This document shows, piece after piece, positions 1,498 to 6,961 of a stretch of 22,953 nt of DNA (position 1 is its first letter; each line of letters begins with the position of its first letter). The stretch comes from a virus. The DNA is taken from IMG/VR virus record IMGVR_UViG_3300032087_004037, positions 1-22,953 of that record; one strand, 5' to 3'. A model generated the notes under the pieces. The model had not been told where the DNA came from, did not search any database, and was given only the letters and a program-made list of their open reading frames with translations. The position numbers and the translations under genes are program-made.

Positions 1498-3198
1498 TTG
1501 GGAGGGGGTGAAGTTACAGTTCCCGCATCTAAGTTATCTGATGAAATATCTACTATCGAACAAGTTTCAAACACTGATGATTTAACTGCAATTGGTAACA
1601 CTATTGGTGATCAAAGAATTGTCGGAAATAGCCTTTACATCTGGAATGGAACAGGCTGGTTTAGAATTGCCCTAATAAATGAGACTCCCACTTGGGATTC
1701 TGGTGGTCAACCTCTGTCTTCATATGATTTAAGCTCGGATAGCCCACAAACAGCTACAATAATTACTCTTGCTGCTACAGATCCAGATGGTCTTCCTATA
1801 AATTATTCTTATATAACCGGCGGCTCGATGGATTCTATTGCTACTATATCTCAAGATTCTTCCGTATTTACAATCACACCAAAAACAGCAGCTCAAGCTC
1901 CGGATGGTGGTACTGGAACAATCACCTTTAGGGCTTCTGATGGTGTTAACATTCTACCTCAAGTATCAAGCTTTACTTTGGCATTTCCCGCCGATTGGTC
2001 TTTAGCCACACAGCAGGCTAAATTGCAAGGTTCAACTGTAGAACAATATGCGCAATTTGGGGGAGATGCTGCTCTTTCTGATGATGGAAACACGGCTATT
2101 ATCAGTGCTCCGGTTGAAGATCCTCTTGGTGTTAACTCTGGTGCCGCTTATATCTTTACTAGATCGGGTACAACTTGGACGGAACAAGCAAAAATAACGG
2201 CAAGTGATGGTGGGGTCGATCAACAATTTGGATATTCAGTTTCTATCTCCGATGATGGAAACACAGTTATTGTTGGAACAAACGCAGCTGCAAACTCTAA
2301 CTATTACAATGGATCTGCTTATATTTTCACACGTTCTGGCTCAACTTGGTCTCAACAAGCTAAGCTGGTGGCAGGCGATCCACAGGCAGGTGTTAATTTC
2401 GGTAGAGCTATTTCTATCTCCGGTGATGGAAACACTGTTCTTGTTTGCGCACATGGGGATGATACAGGTGGTACTAATGCCGGCTCCGCTTATGTTTTCA
2501 CACGTTCTGGCTCAACTTGGTCACAACAAGCTAAAATTCAGGCAGATGTTATTGGGTCGAATGATCAATTCGGGTTTAGCGGCTCGCTCAATGGTGATGG
2601 AAATACGGCTATTATAGGCGCAAATTTAGAAACCACTACAGTCTCAAATCAAGGAGCTGCTTATATTTTCACACGTTCTGGCTCAACTTGGTCTCAACAA
2701 GCAAAAATAGTGGCGAGTGACCCAGGCGCTTCTGATTATTTTGGTTGGGAAGTATCTATTTCAGAAGATGGAAACACAGTTGTTGTCGGAGCTTATAATA
2801 ATGACGAAGTAGACACAAATGCTGGTGCCGCTTATATCTTTACTAGATCGGGTACAACTTGGTCTCAACAAGCAAAATTAACGGCAAGCGATGGCGCTGC
2901 CAATGATTGGCTCGGGTATACGGTTGATATTTCTAATAATGGAAACACGGCTGTTGTCGGCAGTCAACAAGAAGATAGTGTTGCGGCTGACTCTGGGGCT
3001 GTTTATATTTACTATCGTTCTGGAACAACTTGGTCGCAACAAGCTAAATTAAAAGCCAGTGACGCTCAAACAAGTGATAAACTTACAGCCACGTCTGTAA
3101 CTATATCCGGTGACGGAAAGACGATCATTGCGTGTGCTTCCCTCGAGGACACTGGAGGCATTAGTGCTGGGTCAGCATATGTGTTTATTGGAGGTTAA
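1465..3198 (+). CDS. Tail fibre with seven-bladed FG-GAP beta-propeller
   Basis: 577 residues. Residues 1-13 match the upstream fibre (MATRARNLANLLG). Residues about 49-70 carry GDQRIVGNSLYIWNGTGWFRIALIN. Residues about 72-175 form a cadherin/Ig-like domain (ATDPDGLPINYSY, FRASDGVNILP, FTLAF) that is closely related to the gene at 22334. Residues about 180-577 hold repeats of about 54 residues with FG, a (D/G/E)DGNT core, AYIFTRSG and TWSQQAK. I count seven DGNT-type cores, the number expected of an integrin-alpha-like FG-GAP propeller. Such propellers bind proteins or sugars, so a receptor-binding tip is inferred. The gene sits 43 bp after the preceding fibre with GGGA ahead of its ATG. Confidence 0.8.
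   Translation: MATRARNLANLLGGGEVTVPASKLSDEISTIEQVSNTDDLTAIGNTIGDQRIVGNSLYIWNGTGWFRIALINETPTWDSGGQPLSSYDLSSDSPQTATIITLAATDPDGLPINYSYITGGSMDSIATISQDSSVFTITPKTAAQAPDGGTGTITFRASDGVNILPQVSSFTLAFPADWSLATQQAKLQGSTVEQYAQFGGDAALSDDGNTAIISAPVEDPLGVNSGAAYIFTRSGTTWTEQAKITASDGGVDQQFGYSVSISDDGNTVIVGTNAAANSNYYNGSAYIFTRSGSTWSQQAKLVAGDPQAGVNFGRAISISGDGNTVLVCAHGDDTGGTNAGSAYVFTRSGSTWSQQAKIQADVIGSNDQFGFSGSLNGDGNTAIIGANLETTTVSNQGAAYIFTRSGSTWSQQAKIVASDPGASDYFGWEVSISEDGNTVVVGAYNNDEVDTNAGAAYIFTRSGTTWSQQAKLTASDGAANDWLGYTVDISNNGNTAVVGSQQEDSVAADSGAVYIYYRSGTTWSQQAKLKASDAQTSDKLTATSVTISGDGKTIIACASLEDTGGISAGSAYVFIGG
2037..3195 (+). repeat. Seven tandem FG-GAP repeats
   Basis: In-frame repeats of about 160-165 bp encode the propeller blades. 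Several blades share near-identical DNA for the FTRSGSTWSQQAK segment, seen near 2326, 2503 and 2668. Others use an alternative DNA version (near 2153 and 2845) for FTRSGTTW. Two repeat subtypes thus alternate, consistent with recombination between blades. Confidence 0.7.
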
Positions 3199-3204
3199 TA
3201 GAGC

Positions 3205-3360
3205 ATGCCGTACAATGCAGTTTACTTAGCGAATCTACATGGTTATATTCAAGACTTCAGAGTTACTAAAGGTCTCGCAAGATACACCTCAAACTTTACA
3301 CCACCAACAGCACCGCTAAAAGAATTAATTATAAAATTCTATAAAAAATACTATATGTGA
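3205..3360 (+). pseudogene. Remnant of a LamG-type fibre C-terminus
   Basis: A 51-codon ORF encodes MPYNAVYLANLHGYIQDFR followed by VTKGLARYTSNFTPPTAPL. GYI(D/Q)D(L/F)RVTKG(V/L)ARYT.NFTPPTAP is the usual last strand and tail of LamG/concanavalin-type jelly-roll domains in phage fibres. Here it stands alone, without the roughly 150 residues that should come before it. A TAG codon precedes the ATG in frame, and the last residues (about IIKFYKKYYM) look unrelated. A GGAGG at 3190-3194 could allow translation, so a functional small protein is possible. A leftover from replacement of an earlier fibre gene is more likely. Confidence 0.6.
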
Positions 3361-3394: not shown

Positions 3395-3423
3395 TTTACA
3401 AAAACCGAGCTTTAATATATAAT
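3395..3423 (+). promoter_or_regulatory. Sigma70-like promoter for nrdJ
   Basis: TTTACA at 3395-3400, a 17-bp spacer and a perfect TATAAT at 3418-3423, 42 bp before the nrdJ start. It shares the GTTTAC -35 core and 17-bp spacing with the promoters at 8438, 9957 and 13689. Confidence 0.7.
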
Positions 3424-3465: not shown

Positions 3466-5682
3466 ATGCAAACTAAGTTTGTTGACACTAGGCAGTTGTT
3501 GTCTGAAGCAAAATTTTATGACGGTTATTCAAGATTTAATGATGAAAAGAATAGATATGAAACATGGGATGAGGCCGTTGATCGTGTTATGAGTATGCAC
3601 GAAAACTTTTATTCATCTAAAATGAATAACCTTACCGACTACATCGAAGAAGCGAGAGATGCTTACAAGAAACAATACGTCCTTGGTGCTCAACGTGCAC
3701 TTCAGTTTGGTGGAGAACAAATCTTAAAACATCAGATGAGGATGTATAACTGTACCTCTTCTTATGCTGATAGATCTGAGTTTTTTGGAGAAATCTTTTA
3801 TATTCTACTATGTGGTGCTGGTGCTGGATTCTCGGTACAGACACATCATGTGAATAAACTTCCAAAAGTACAAAAAAGAACTAAAGCCCCAAAAACTCAT
3901 GTTGTGGATGATTCTATCGAGGGATGGGCTAAAGCTGTTGACGTGCTTCTTTCATCATATTTTATCGATGGTGGTAAACATCCAGAATATCAAGGTCGTA
4001 GAATCTATTTTGATCTATCTCAGATTCGTCCAAAAGGCGCAAAGATTTCCGGTGGATTTAAAGCACCGGGTCCGGATGGATTACGTCTAGCACTCGATAA
4101 GATTGAGCACTTGCTTGAAGCCGCAGTGGTTGATATGAAAGAGCCTATTTCTCTTCGTCCTATTCAAGTATATGACATTGTTATGCACGAAGCAGACGCA
4201 GTTCTTTCCGGAGGTGTTCGTCGTTCAGCAACCATTTGCTTGTTCTCACCAAACGATGAAGAAATGATGAATGCTAAAACTGGTAACTGGTTCATGGATA
4301 ATCCACAGCGTGGTCGTTCAAACAACTCAGCGGTGATAGTAAGAGATGAAGCGACTCCTGAGGAGTTTAACACTCTTATGGAAAAAGTAAAGCAGTTCGG
4401 CGAACCCGGTTTTGTGTTTGTAAAATCAAGAGAGCATACTACAAACCCATGTGTTGAGATTGGAATGTTCCCACAGATCGATGGACAGTCCGGCTGGCAG
4501 GGCTGTAACCTGACCGAAATCAATGGTGGCAAGTGTACATCGTCTGATGAGTTCTATAAAGCTTGCAGAGCTGCATCTATTCTTGGTACACTTCAGGCTG
4601 GTTACACCGATTTTAAATTCTTGTCAGAAACATCAAAGAAAATCTTTGACCGGGAAGCATTGATTGGTGCTTCAATCACGGGTTGGATGAATAACCCACA
4701 CGTTCTTTTCGATGAAGAAGTATTGTCAAGAGGAGCTGAAATTGTTAAGCAAGTTAATAGAGAAGTTGCTGAAGCTATTGGAATCAATCCTGCGGCCAGA
4801 ACCACGTGTGTAAAACCATCAGGTAACGCATCAGTACTACTGCAAACCGGTTCAGGTATTCATGCAGAACACGCACCAATGTATATCCGCAACGTTCAAA
4901 TGAACAAGGAATCAGAAGTAACTCAAGCGATTGAAAGAACTAATCCATACATGGTGGAAGAATCAGTATGGAGTGCTAATGGAACCGACGTCGTCGTTTC
5001 ATTTCCAATTCTACCAAAAGAAGGATCAATGTACAAAGACGAGTTACTCGGGGTTAGTCACTTAGAAAAAGTAAAACTCGCGCAAGCTTCATGGGTTGAA
5101 GCTGGAACAAATCCAGAGCTATGCGCTGATGAGGGTGTAAGACATAACGTCTCAAACACAATCATCGTAGATGATTGGGATGAGGTAGAAAAGTATGTTT
5201 TTGAAAACCGTCATTCTTTTGCAGGGATTTCTTTCTTGCCAATGACAGGTGACAAAGACTATAACCAAGCTCCAAACACGGCTGTTATCACGGCGCAGGA
5301 AATGGTTGAAAAATATGATACAGCGGCGATATTCGCTTCTGGTCTTGTGGTAGACGCATTGAATGCTTTCTCAAACTTATGGCAAGCATGTTCCACCGCT
5401 CAAGGTATGGGAGACGATCTAACTCTTGATAGTGCTGAAAACGCATTGAAGAGAGACTGGGTTCGTAGGTTTAATAATTTTGCAGATAATTATTTGAAAG
5501 GAGACGTTAAGCAAGCAGAACATTGTTTAAAAGACTCTTATCTTCTTCATAAGTGGAATAAAATCAATAAGAACTTTAAACCAATCGAGTGGAAGTATGA
5601 TCTCACCGAGAAGAAGTATACAGATGTTGATACGTTAGGAGCAGCCGCCTGTGCAGGCGGGGCGTGTGAAATAGACTTCTAG
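3466..5682 (+). CDS. nrdJ: Adenosylcobalamin-dependent (class II) ribonucleotide reductase
   Basis: 738 residues, close to the 739 of the monomeric Lactobacillus leichmannii RTPR. It reduces ribonucleotides to deoxyribonucleotides by a B12-generated thiyl radical and should raise dNTP supply for phage replication. Visible residues: C96 (MYNC) and C347 (GCNL) as the likely active-site redox pair, C329 and E331 in NPCVEI as thiyl radical cysteine and general acid/base, a GEPGF motif at about 317, and a C-terminal CAGGAC pair (C729, C734) that would re-reduce the active site. Allosteric details cannot be judged by eye. Spacing between active-site cysteines is shorter than in RTPR (233 versus 289 residues from remembered numbering), so the insert differs. 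The start has AGAGGAA upstream. It has its own promoter and is followed by a zinc-ribbon gene and a terminator. Confidence 0.93.
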   Translation: MQTKFVDTRQLLSEAKFYDGYSRFNDEKNRYETWDEAVDRVMSMHENFYSSKMNNLTDYIEEARDAYKKQYVLGAQRALQFGGEQILKHQMRMYNCTSSYADRSEFFGEIFYILLCGAGAGFSVQTHHVNKLPKVQKRTKAPKTHVVDDSIEGWAKAVDVLLSSYFIDGGKHPEYQGRRIYFDLSQIRPKGAKISGGFKAPGPDGLRLALDKIEHLLEAAVVDMKEPISLRPIQVYDIVMHEADAVLSGGVRRSATICLFSPNDEEMMNAKTGNWFMDNPQRGRSNNSAVIVRDEATPEEFNTLMEKVKQFGEPGFVFVKSREHTTNPCVEIGMFPQIDGQSGWQGCNLTEINGGKCTSSDEFYKACRAASILGTLQAGYTDFKFLSETSKKIFDREALIGASITGWMNNPHVLFDEEVLSRGAEIVKQVNREVAEAIGINPAARTTCVKPSGNASVLLQTGSGIHAEHAPMYIRNVQMNKESEVTQAIERTNPYMVEESVWSANGTDVVVSFPILPKEGSMYKDELLGVSHLEKVKLAQASWVEAGTNPELCADEGVRHNVSNTIIVDDWDEVEKYVFENRHSFAGISFLPMTGDKDYNQAPNTAVITAQEMVEKYDTAAIFASGLVVDALNAFSNLWQACSTAQGMGDDLTLDSAENALKRDWVRRFNNFADNYLKGDVKQAEHCLKDSYLLHKWNKINKNFKPIEWKYDLTEKKYTDVDTLGAAACAGGACEIDF

Positions 5683-5690
5683 GAGATACA

Positions 5691-5840
5691 ATGAGATATT
5701 ATTACGTTGAGTGTGACTTATGTGAAAGTGAGTCGCAGGTTTCTATAGACAACACTACTACACCTGAACCAGAATATTGTCCTATATGTGGCACTGAAGC
5801 ACGTACAGAACTAATTGATGGAGATGAGGATTCGTATTAG
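5691..5840 (+). CDS. Zinc-ribbon microprotein
   Basis: 49 residues with two CxxC knuckles: C8-D-L-C11 and C30-P-I-C33, followed by an acidic tail (DGDEDSY). This is the layout of a small zinc ribbon. The gene starts 8 bp after the nrdJ stop, with AGGAGA overlapping that stop, so it is probably co-transcribed and translationally coupled with nrdJ. Both end at the terminator at 5867-5899. Function is unknown; a link to nrdJ rests only on position. Confidence 0.7.
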   Translation: MRYYYVECDLCESESQVSIDNTTTPEPEYCPICGTEARTELIDGDEDSY

Positions 5841-5863
5841 TATATAAAAAAATTAAGAAATTA

Positions 5864-5871
5864 TATAAATA
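5864..5871 (+). promoter_or_regulatory. T4-type late promoter motif TATAAATA
   Basis: Exact match to the T4 late -10 element, 58 bp before the structural-type gene at 5929. By T4 geometry, transcription would start about six bases downstream, near 5877. That falls in the loop of the terminator hairpin, so the late transcript would lack its 5' arm. Confidence 0.55.
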
Positions 5872-5899
5872 GTCCTATACATTATGGGACTATTTTTTT
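5867..5899 (+). terminator. Intrinsic terminator after nrdJ operon
   Basis: A perfect 9-bp stem (AAATAGTCC at 5867-5875 with GGACTATTT at 5887-5895) and an 11-base loop, running into seven consecutive Ts (5893-5899). This is the clearest intrinsic terminator in the window. Confidence 0.85.
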
Positions 5900-5928
5900 A
5901 TATACATTGATTTAAGAAAGGAAAAACT

Positions 5929-6135
5929 ATGTCAGTAGGAACATACAGCCAGTTTATGGATATAAACAACCCGTTGTCTATTCCAGTACATGATTTTTTG
6001 GAAAATGCGTATGACGTTAATGGTAATCTATTAACTGTAATATATAAAAATGGAGGACCTTCCGGAAGAGTTGTATGTACTCTTACTATGACATATGACG
6101 GTAGTGGTAATCTATTAACTCTTACAAGGGCGTAG
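5929..6135 (+). CDS. Small structural-type protein with repeated NGNLLT motif
   Basis: 68 residues, not recognised with certainty. The C-terminal half repeats YDVNGNLLTVIYKNG as YDGSGNLLTLTRA, which resembles a short beta-hairpin (YD/RHS-like) repeat. The DNA carries a matching 16-bp exact repeat. No signal peptide or TM segment. AAGGAAAAACT precedes the ATG, and the gene lies downstream of a candidate late promoter. It runs directly into the next gene, whose ends look like phage structural proteins, so a virion or assembly role is inferred. Confidence 0.65.
   Translation: MSVGTYSQFMDINNPLSIPVHDFLENAYDVNGNLLTVIYKNGGPSGRVVCTLTMTYDGSGNLLTLTRA
6021..6120 (+). repeat. 16-bp direct repeat inside small structural gene
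   Basis: TGGTAATCTATTAACT occurs at 6021-6036 and again at 6105-6120, in the same reading frame (encoding [N/S]GNLLT). The exact DNA identity suggests a recent internal duplication. Confidence 0.8.
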
Positions 6136-6139
6136 TAAC

Positions 6140-6463
6140 ATGCCATATAAATTTAATCCACTGTCCGGTAAGTTTGATTTAACATCTACGAACATTATCA
6201 CGAGTACTGTTCAAAGCTTAGACTTAACTGATGATACATTATCCATTAGCAACGGTAATAGTGTTGATCTTTCTGGATACGTTGATAGTGCTAGTATTAA
6301 TACAGTTATTTCAAATACTACAATAATTCAAGAACTTCAGGACGGAAGTAACTGGACACTGCCCGGGCCCTACACAAATGAACAGAACGCGGCTAATGGC
6401 GGTGTTGCAATAGGTCAAGCATATTATGATAATGGTGGAACCGTTAGAGTTAGACTAACTTAA
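6140..6463 (+). CDS. Phage structural protein, MPYKFNP-type
   Basis: 107 residues. The N-terminus MPYKFNPLSGKFDLT is a recurring start in tail and structural proteins of marine T4-like phages. The C-terminus (AANGGVAIGQAYYDNGGTVRVRLT) matches a common short terminal beta motif of phage appendage proteins. The middle is Ser/Thr/Asn-rich and beta-like (LDLTDDTLSISNGNSVDLSG). The gene starts 4 bp after the previous stop, so the two form a late pair. The exact virion role is unknown. Confidence 0.65.
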   Translation: MPYKFNPLSGKFDLTSTNIITSTVQSLDLTDDTLSISNGNSVDLSGYVDSASINTVISNTTIIQELQDGSNWTLPGPYTNEQNAANGGVAIGQAYYDNGGTVRVRLT

Positions 6464-6484: not shown

Positions 6485-6961
6485 TTGTGGTATTTTAATG
6501 ATGAAGAATTCGATCCTCTCAAGTATTCATACGAAAACTTGGCGGGTTTCGTTTATATGATTACTGATCTAACAAATAACAAGAAATATATCGGTAAGAA
6601 AAACTTTTGGGCGATTCAGAGATTAAAACCTCTAAAAGGAAAGACGAGAAAAAGAGTAGTTAAAAAAGAATCTGATTGGATGACATATCATGGTTCTAAC
6701 GAAGAAGTAAAATACCTTGTTGAAACAGAAGGTAGCAAGAGATTTAAAAGAGAAATTCTCAGACTTTGCAAAAGTAAAGGAGAAATGACTTATTTTGAGA
6801 TGAAAGAACAGTTCGATCGTGAAGTATTATTTAGTGATGAGTATTATAATGAGTTCATTGGAGGAAAAATTCATTCTAAACACGTCAAAGGGATAATAAC
6901 ACGAGGAGAAACCCATGGCCCATCAGAACGAGTACGATGTACACGTAGTCAAAGTAGTTGA
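6485..6961 (+). CDS. SegE-like GIY-YIG endonuclease family protein
   Basis: 158 residues. GFVYMITDLTNNKKYIGKK (about residues 21-39) is a GIY-YIG core, with the YIG at residues 35-37. It is followed by a basic KGKTRKRVVKKESDWMTYHGS segment and a FKREILRLCKSKGEMTYFEMKEQF region typical of the SegE-like group. The proposed start is TTG: the following WYFNDEEFDP matches the usual MWYYN start of these proteins as I remember them, and no ATG lies nearby. Free-standing GIY-YIG proteins in T4 are homing endonucleases. Whether this one is mobile cannot be told. The last 47 bp overlap the SNase gene in another frame, so the C-terminal residues may be non-essential. Confidence 0.75.
   Translation: MWYFNDEEFDPLKYSYENLAGFVYMITDLTNNKKYIGKKNFWAIQRLKPLKGKTRKRVVKKESDWMTYHGSNEEVKYLVETEGSKRFKREILRLCKSKGEMTYFEMKEQFDREVLFSDEYYNEFIGGKIHSKHVKGIITRGETHGPSERVRCTRSQSS

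Follow-up and report, generated by a model that had tools for sequence, protein, structure and literature searches.

T4-type late promoters (gp55/gp33/gp45; PMC2988020, PMC1524935) carry their box at positions -13 to -6 relative to the transcription start, and the box takes the form CTAAATA in phage Aeh1 (PMC1524935). In T4 gene e (lysozyme), I-TevI, I-TevII, I-TevIII and segB, and in Aeh1 mobE, such a promoter lies in the 5' strand of a hairpin that sequesters the ribosome-binding site (PMC3014915, PMC2988022), and only early read-through RNA folds this hairpin. Several of these genes encode homing endonucleases, some of them located beside or inside nucleotide-reductase genes; the reviews describe no role of this hairpin as a terminator. 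In T-even phages and Aeh1, nrdA and nrdB are separated by mobE, a gene that combines a late-promoter hairpin with an intrinsic terminator that stops ~30% of transcripts, the latter being a separate element within the coding region (PMC2988022). Intrinsic terminators of T4-like phages lie behind early operons and join a stem-loop to a downstream U-tract (PMC2988022, PMC1524935). Searches of the open-access literature turned up no description of a T4-like late promoter placed within an intrinsic terminator, which is weak evidence of absence, and late-promoter prediction has been reported as unsuccessful in pelagimyophages (PMC7029224).

The window analyzed here is a whole IMG/VR contig of 22,953 bases with 37% GC, harboring genes of T4-like marine phages (an exonuclease, PhoH, a SegE-type nuclease and similar). 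One of its intergenic regions resembles the e, I-TevI, segB and mobE leaders: a late promoter occupies the upstream half of a hairpin that only early read-through RNA would fold, in a similar genetic setting, a homing endonuclease gene beside a reductase gene. It differs from these leaders by a tract of six to eight U and, in the window, by a hairpin that does not contain the ribosome-binding site, and from mobE in that one hairpin would perform both tasks. As a promoter, it displays an exact TATAAATA in intergenic position, and box positions in relatives fit the T4 box-to-start spacing, but it overlaps an RNA hairpin, and in related marine phages the box is also found at exactly 5 nt from the ATG, where the predicted transcript has no leader. 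As a terminator, it possesses the usual stem-loop and U-tract after an early operon, but the stem is low in G+C and holds a promoter within its 5' arm. It is probable that the intrinsic terminator ending the early nrdJ/zinc-ribbon transcript has a T4-type late promoter incorporated in its 5' arm here.

Anatomy of the promoter and hairpin

The features of the locus are collected in Table 1. The original prediction, made from the sequence of the window, had placed the TATAAATA box over the 5' arm of a terminator; sequence and fold confirm this overlap, and the box, which precedes a gene, matches the T4 consensus perfectly. The arm, given as 5867-5875, starts where expected and is longer, reaching 5879 and forming 13 pairs. 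T4 geometry does yield the proposed late start at 5877, a position that falls within the 5' arm and not inside the loop. With 13 pairs directly followed by U7, the element displays the stable stem-loop and U-tract of an intrinsic terminator. The RNA 5860-5903 has a minimum free energy of -14.1 kcal/mol (z = -5.05), and none of 200 shuffles folds equally well. RNA initiated at 5877 would lack 10 of the 13 bases of the 5' arm, and no significant structure was found in the fold predicted from this position onward (z = -0.54), in agreement with the claim that late RNA cannot form the terminator. The window therefore exhibits a late promoter in the 5' arm of a hairpin that late RNA is predicted to be unable to fold. 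Because the stem contains only three G-C pairs, termination may be partial. An Rfam search of the window gave no match.

Table 1. Features around the predicted switch (window coordinates)
Feature	Position	Strand	Remarks
Sigma-70-like early promoter of the nrdJ operon, TTTACA-17-TATAAT	3395..3423	+	11/12 matches
nrdJ-like class II ribonucleotide reductase	3466..5682	+	77-86% identity with at least 80 IMG/VR loci; annotated phage ribonucleotide reductases matched by tblastn
49-aa CxxC...CxxC zinc-ribbon-like ORF	5691..5840	+	Last gene before the terminator; ORF after nrdJ in relatives too
Late promoter box TATAAATA	5864..5871	+	T4 positions -13 to -6; intergenic; conserved in relatives
Terminator hairpin 5' arm AAAUAGUCCUAUA	5867..5879	+	Shares 5 bases with the box; stem covariation, 31 sequences
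Predicted late transcription start (+1)	5877..5877	+	By T4 geometry (PMC1524935); 3 nt before the loop; inferred position
Hairpin loop CAU	5880..5882	+	Terminator scan and fold prediction
Terminator hairpin 3' arm UAUGGGACUAUUU	5883..5895	+	Terminator scan and fold prediction
T7 tract	5893..5899	+	Stem pairing involves its first three bases; early 3' ends predicted near 5897-5900
Shine-Dalgarno AAAGGA of orfA	5917..5922	+	Outside the hairpin; 6 nt before the orfA ATG
orfA, 68 aa, phrog_26903 (unknown function)	5929..6135	+	Weak RHS-repeat match
orfB, 107 aa, function unknown	6140..6463	+	3' end persists as a remnant in L095 and L511-L516
segE-type GIY-YIG endonuclease, TTG start	6485..6961	+	Matches PF19835 with E 2.1e-34 and 118.9 bits (cut-off 25); predicted activity

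The genes on both sides differ in part from those anticipated. The terminator had been assigned to nrdJ; it does follow the nrdJ region, while the gene directly preceding it is the 49-aa ORF, a putative zinc ribbon judging from its cysteines, whose stop codon is 26 nt from the hairpin start. A stretch similar to the early promoter, with both hexamers, is present in the relative L095. Downstream, the genes do not show the late structural operon initially proposed: the terminator is followed by two small ORFs (5929 and 6140), the segE-type endonuclease gene (6485) and, behind it, a nuclease gene at 6915. The leader to orfA is long, at 52 nt. In relatives segE is the gene directly behind the predicted switch, whereas orfA and orfB intervene in the window; a search for orfA homologues found them solely in other contexts, and at the inspected loci no such switch preceded them.

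Two features upstream of the early promoter are to be mentioned. A remnant of a tail-fibre-like reading frame (GYIQDFRVTKGLARYTSNFTPPTAPL) lies at 3205-3360, before the nrdJ promoter, and L095 has four similar stretches. A tail-protein-like gene at 2070-3062 harbors tandem 171-bp (57-aa) repeats.

Relatives and the segE upstream regions

The relatives carrying the arrangement are metagenomic fragments. The closest among the matches listed are L095 and L511-L516, with segE 80% identical and surrounding DNA 86% identical to the window; L095 first surfaced in a loose pattern scan otherwise swamped by unrelated contigs. At the same place they exhibit TATAAATAGCTTTATATCTTTATATAAGGCTATTTTTTTT, with the box in the form TATAAATAG and a U8 tract kept. 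Two stem pairs are changed on both sides (T-A to C-G and C-G to T-A), i.e. in a compensatory manner. They lack orfA and most of orfB, of which the last ~14 codons are still readable, and they look as if the orfA/orfB pair had been deleted there. A further relative, L517, shares 97% identity with the window as far as the end of nrdJ and the zinc-ribbon ORF. Beyond that point it retains TATAAATAGC and the matching GCTATTT that closes the stem; the rest of its hairpin is wholly different and longer, has a weak U-tract and directly precedes segE.

A pattern combining the box and both arms, run over 2.9 million contigs, retrieved at least 29 loci, of which 25 immediately precede segE and its ATGTGG start. 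To avoid circularity, the scan was repeated with the 3' arm and the segE start required but not the box; it yielded at least 35 distinct sequences at segE, plus one unrelated gene, a number that gives no frequency of the arrangement because the 3' arm was required. All 35 segE sequences have CTATTT paired with an AAATAG located directly behind a late box, which reads [N]ATAAATA (NATAAATA) in 31 and CTAAATA in four. To note, loci L281, L286, L302, L325, L429, L450 and L479 possess CTAAATA instead of ATAAATA before segE, in the same hairpin arrangement. In protein-based sampling, the arrangement occurs in none of 48 distinct upstream regions near nrdJ relatives, in 10 of 73 obtained with the segE profile and in none of 37 obtained with the segE of the window.

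Pooling gave 174 distinct regions upstream of segE; the switch of the window and that of the L095 group do not enter the counts, as they lie too far from segE. The box lies in a terminator arm in 38 regions (34 from the 3'-arm scan and 10 from protein-based sampling, which overlap), exactly 5 nt before the start codon in 82 (with a looser box) and elsewhere in 32; 22 have no box. The expectation that relatives would keep both motifs is borne out: the closest ones retain box and terminator, and none of the 174 regions has a terminator without the box. Among nrdJ relatives, 34 of 48 distinct regions have no hairpin and place the box at 5 nt from the segE ATG; as this holds for most of them, the overlap is one of several solutions. 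Still other arrangements were encountered. In some relatives (L517, L431, L447 and L440) the hairpin that contains the box is followed by a poor U-tract, an arrangement more consistent with translational control than with termination. Immediately ahead of the segE start, L459 and L456 have long stems (AGGTACACT...AGTGTACCT and AAGTCTACA...TGTAGACTT, respectively) that surround a late-box-like sequence, with no U-tract. Another TATAAATA-in-terminator is found in L234 (490-526), before a different ORF (MNDLILALRKTLATNFALYLKTHQFHWNVEG...) that is possibly Dps-like.

The inner stem pairs 6-10 of 31 sequences comprise GC, CG, TA, AT and GT types with no mispair. On a segE tree of 159 rows and few columns, the box-in-terminator label needs 11 changes, at least five of them forced by well supported branches; gains, losses and recombination are not separable in this figure. 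The window and L095 form a pair of their own, adjoining relatives with the 5-nt arrangement.

The 5-nt arrangement itself bears on promoter function. Boxes near an ORF start stand exactly 5 nt before the ATG in 8 of 21 cases in HTVC008M (L415-L422), 13 of 54 in nrdJ relatives (L005-L084 and L261-L280) and 3 of 25 in Melnitz (L330, L363 and L410-L414); T4, RB49 and Syn9 have none, and control heptamers give 0-1. By T4 geometry, a box at this distance puts +1 on the A of the AUG, so that some marine T4-like phages are predicted to make late mRNAs without a leader. For this phage group, the recurrent spacing also supports, at the sequence level, the promoter as well as the position of its start. 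Homologues of gp55 are encoded by HTVC008M (E 3.5e-66) and by G056, a 141-kb segE-bearing contig (E 6.6e-51); none was found on the 23-kb contig of the window or on the 74-kb contig of its closest relative (G055), both of which are fragments.

Beyond segE, the overlap does not appear to be a common design of late promoters, and this idea was rejected. No strong promoter/terminator overlap was found in T4, RB49, Melnitz, HTVC008M, Syn9, phiM12 and P-SSM2 (1.23 Mb, 309 NATAAATA boxes), which yielded only two weak ones, nor in 345 kb of nrdJ relatives. A strict promoter-plus-T6 pattern matched twice in 14 reference phages, neither match being a hairpin.

Termination, translation and other readings

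A feature not foreseen in the original prediction is that, in most relatives with the arrangement, the hairpin covers the Shine-Dalgarno sequence. In 38 distinct relatives the sequence that best matches a Shine-Dalgarno is part of the 3' arm and precedes the ATG by 7-11 nt, and its predicted openness is at most about 1e-4 in early RNA as compared to a median of 1.5% in late RNA. Among 39 distinct leaders with the box upstream, the loss of structure in late RNA exceeds that of 95% of shuffles in 12/12 with a U-tract and 20/27 without. The theme shared at segE would so be a hairpin that loses its 5' arm when transcription begins at the late site, the U-tract being an addition in a subset.

These data, together with the T4 precedent (PMC3014915, PMC2988022), are the case for regarding the hairpin as mainly a translational switch like those of e, I-TevI and segB, hiding the ribosome-binding site in early RNA, with the U-tract a mere A/T-rich spacer. 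We consider this unlikely for the window: there, and in L095 and L511-L516, the hairpin does not include the Shine-Dalgarno and is not directly followed by segE, and yet the stem and the U7-U8 tract are kept. Sequestration alone does not explain a retained U-tract. Since the Shine-Dalgarno of the window is outside the hairpin, termination is the reading that remains there, and would be the only lock. Alternatively, the terminator may be real and the box unused, the downstream genes being reached by read-through or from another promoter, as orfA and orfB were not found between switch and segE in relatives and the orfA leader is long. This is very improbable given a box of perfect T4 consensus, a good Shine-Dalgarno 6 nt before the orfA ATG and the lack of any other NATAAATA box between 5871 and 9232 in the window.

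It could also be argued that the box is no promoter at all, an A-rich terminator arm that pairs with a U-tract being prone to produce TATAAATA by chance in an A/T-rich genome. Five of the eight box bases are indeed in the stem, and neither motif is enriched in the window, with four TATAAATA against 3.06 expected and 11 terminator-like sites against 10.3 expected. Their combination is nevertheless unusual: none of 300 dinucleotide shuffles produced a strong terminator carrying TATAAATA in its 5' arm and three produced any hairpin carrying it in an arm, as judged with a terminator finder and score that are our own heuristic. In addition, the A or C and the T preceding the AAATA of the stem are kept in 35/35 segE sequences despite differing flanks, other relatives keep the box at segE without any terminator, and the 309 boxes of the seven reference genomes provide no strong overlap. 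A chance origin is thus extremely improbable.

The proposed switch and its meaning

The preferred reading, a late promoter fused to an intrinsic terminator, would operate as follows. Early in infection, polymerase starting from the sigma-70-like promoter at 3395 would transcribe both arms; the RNA would fold the 13-bp hairpin and be released at the U-tract near 5897-5900, and orfA, orfB and segE would consequently remain silent. Later, polymerase with a gp55-type sigma factor would initiate near 5877, a point that leaves most of the 5' arm untranscribed; the terminator could not form and the RNA would run into the downstream genes. That early RNA stops and late RNA escapes, as first proposed, is what the anatomy predicts, and it is supported in part; we infer the switching itself, with its RNA 5' and 3' ends, its dependence on gp55 and its timing, from sequence. 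Where segE directly follows, the 3' arm holds the Shine-Dalgarno, and a second, translational lock is likely in these relatives.

At the level of the group, we lean slightly towards the view that an element of ~36-45 bp, in which a late promoter is fused to an intrinsic terminator, has evolved repeatedly in uncultivated marine T4-like phages at segE behind nrdJ. This element would keep the gene closed to the early polymerase, by termination and often by a hidden Shine-Dalgarno as well, and open to the late one, as one alternative beside a leaderless start and a sequestering hairpin. If so, the early-to-late switch would be a very compact one: depending on where transcription starts, an RNA would or would not contain its own stop signal. 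The same geometry is used by T4 for translation. Its use for termination, together with the repeated changes at a single gene, would illustrate how phages with a small regulatory repertoire separate overlapping early and late programmes, and the element may offer a recognisable late promoter for marine T4-like phages.
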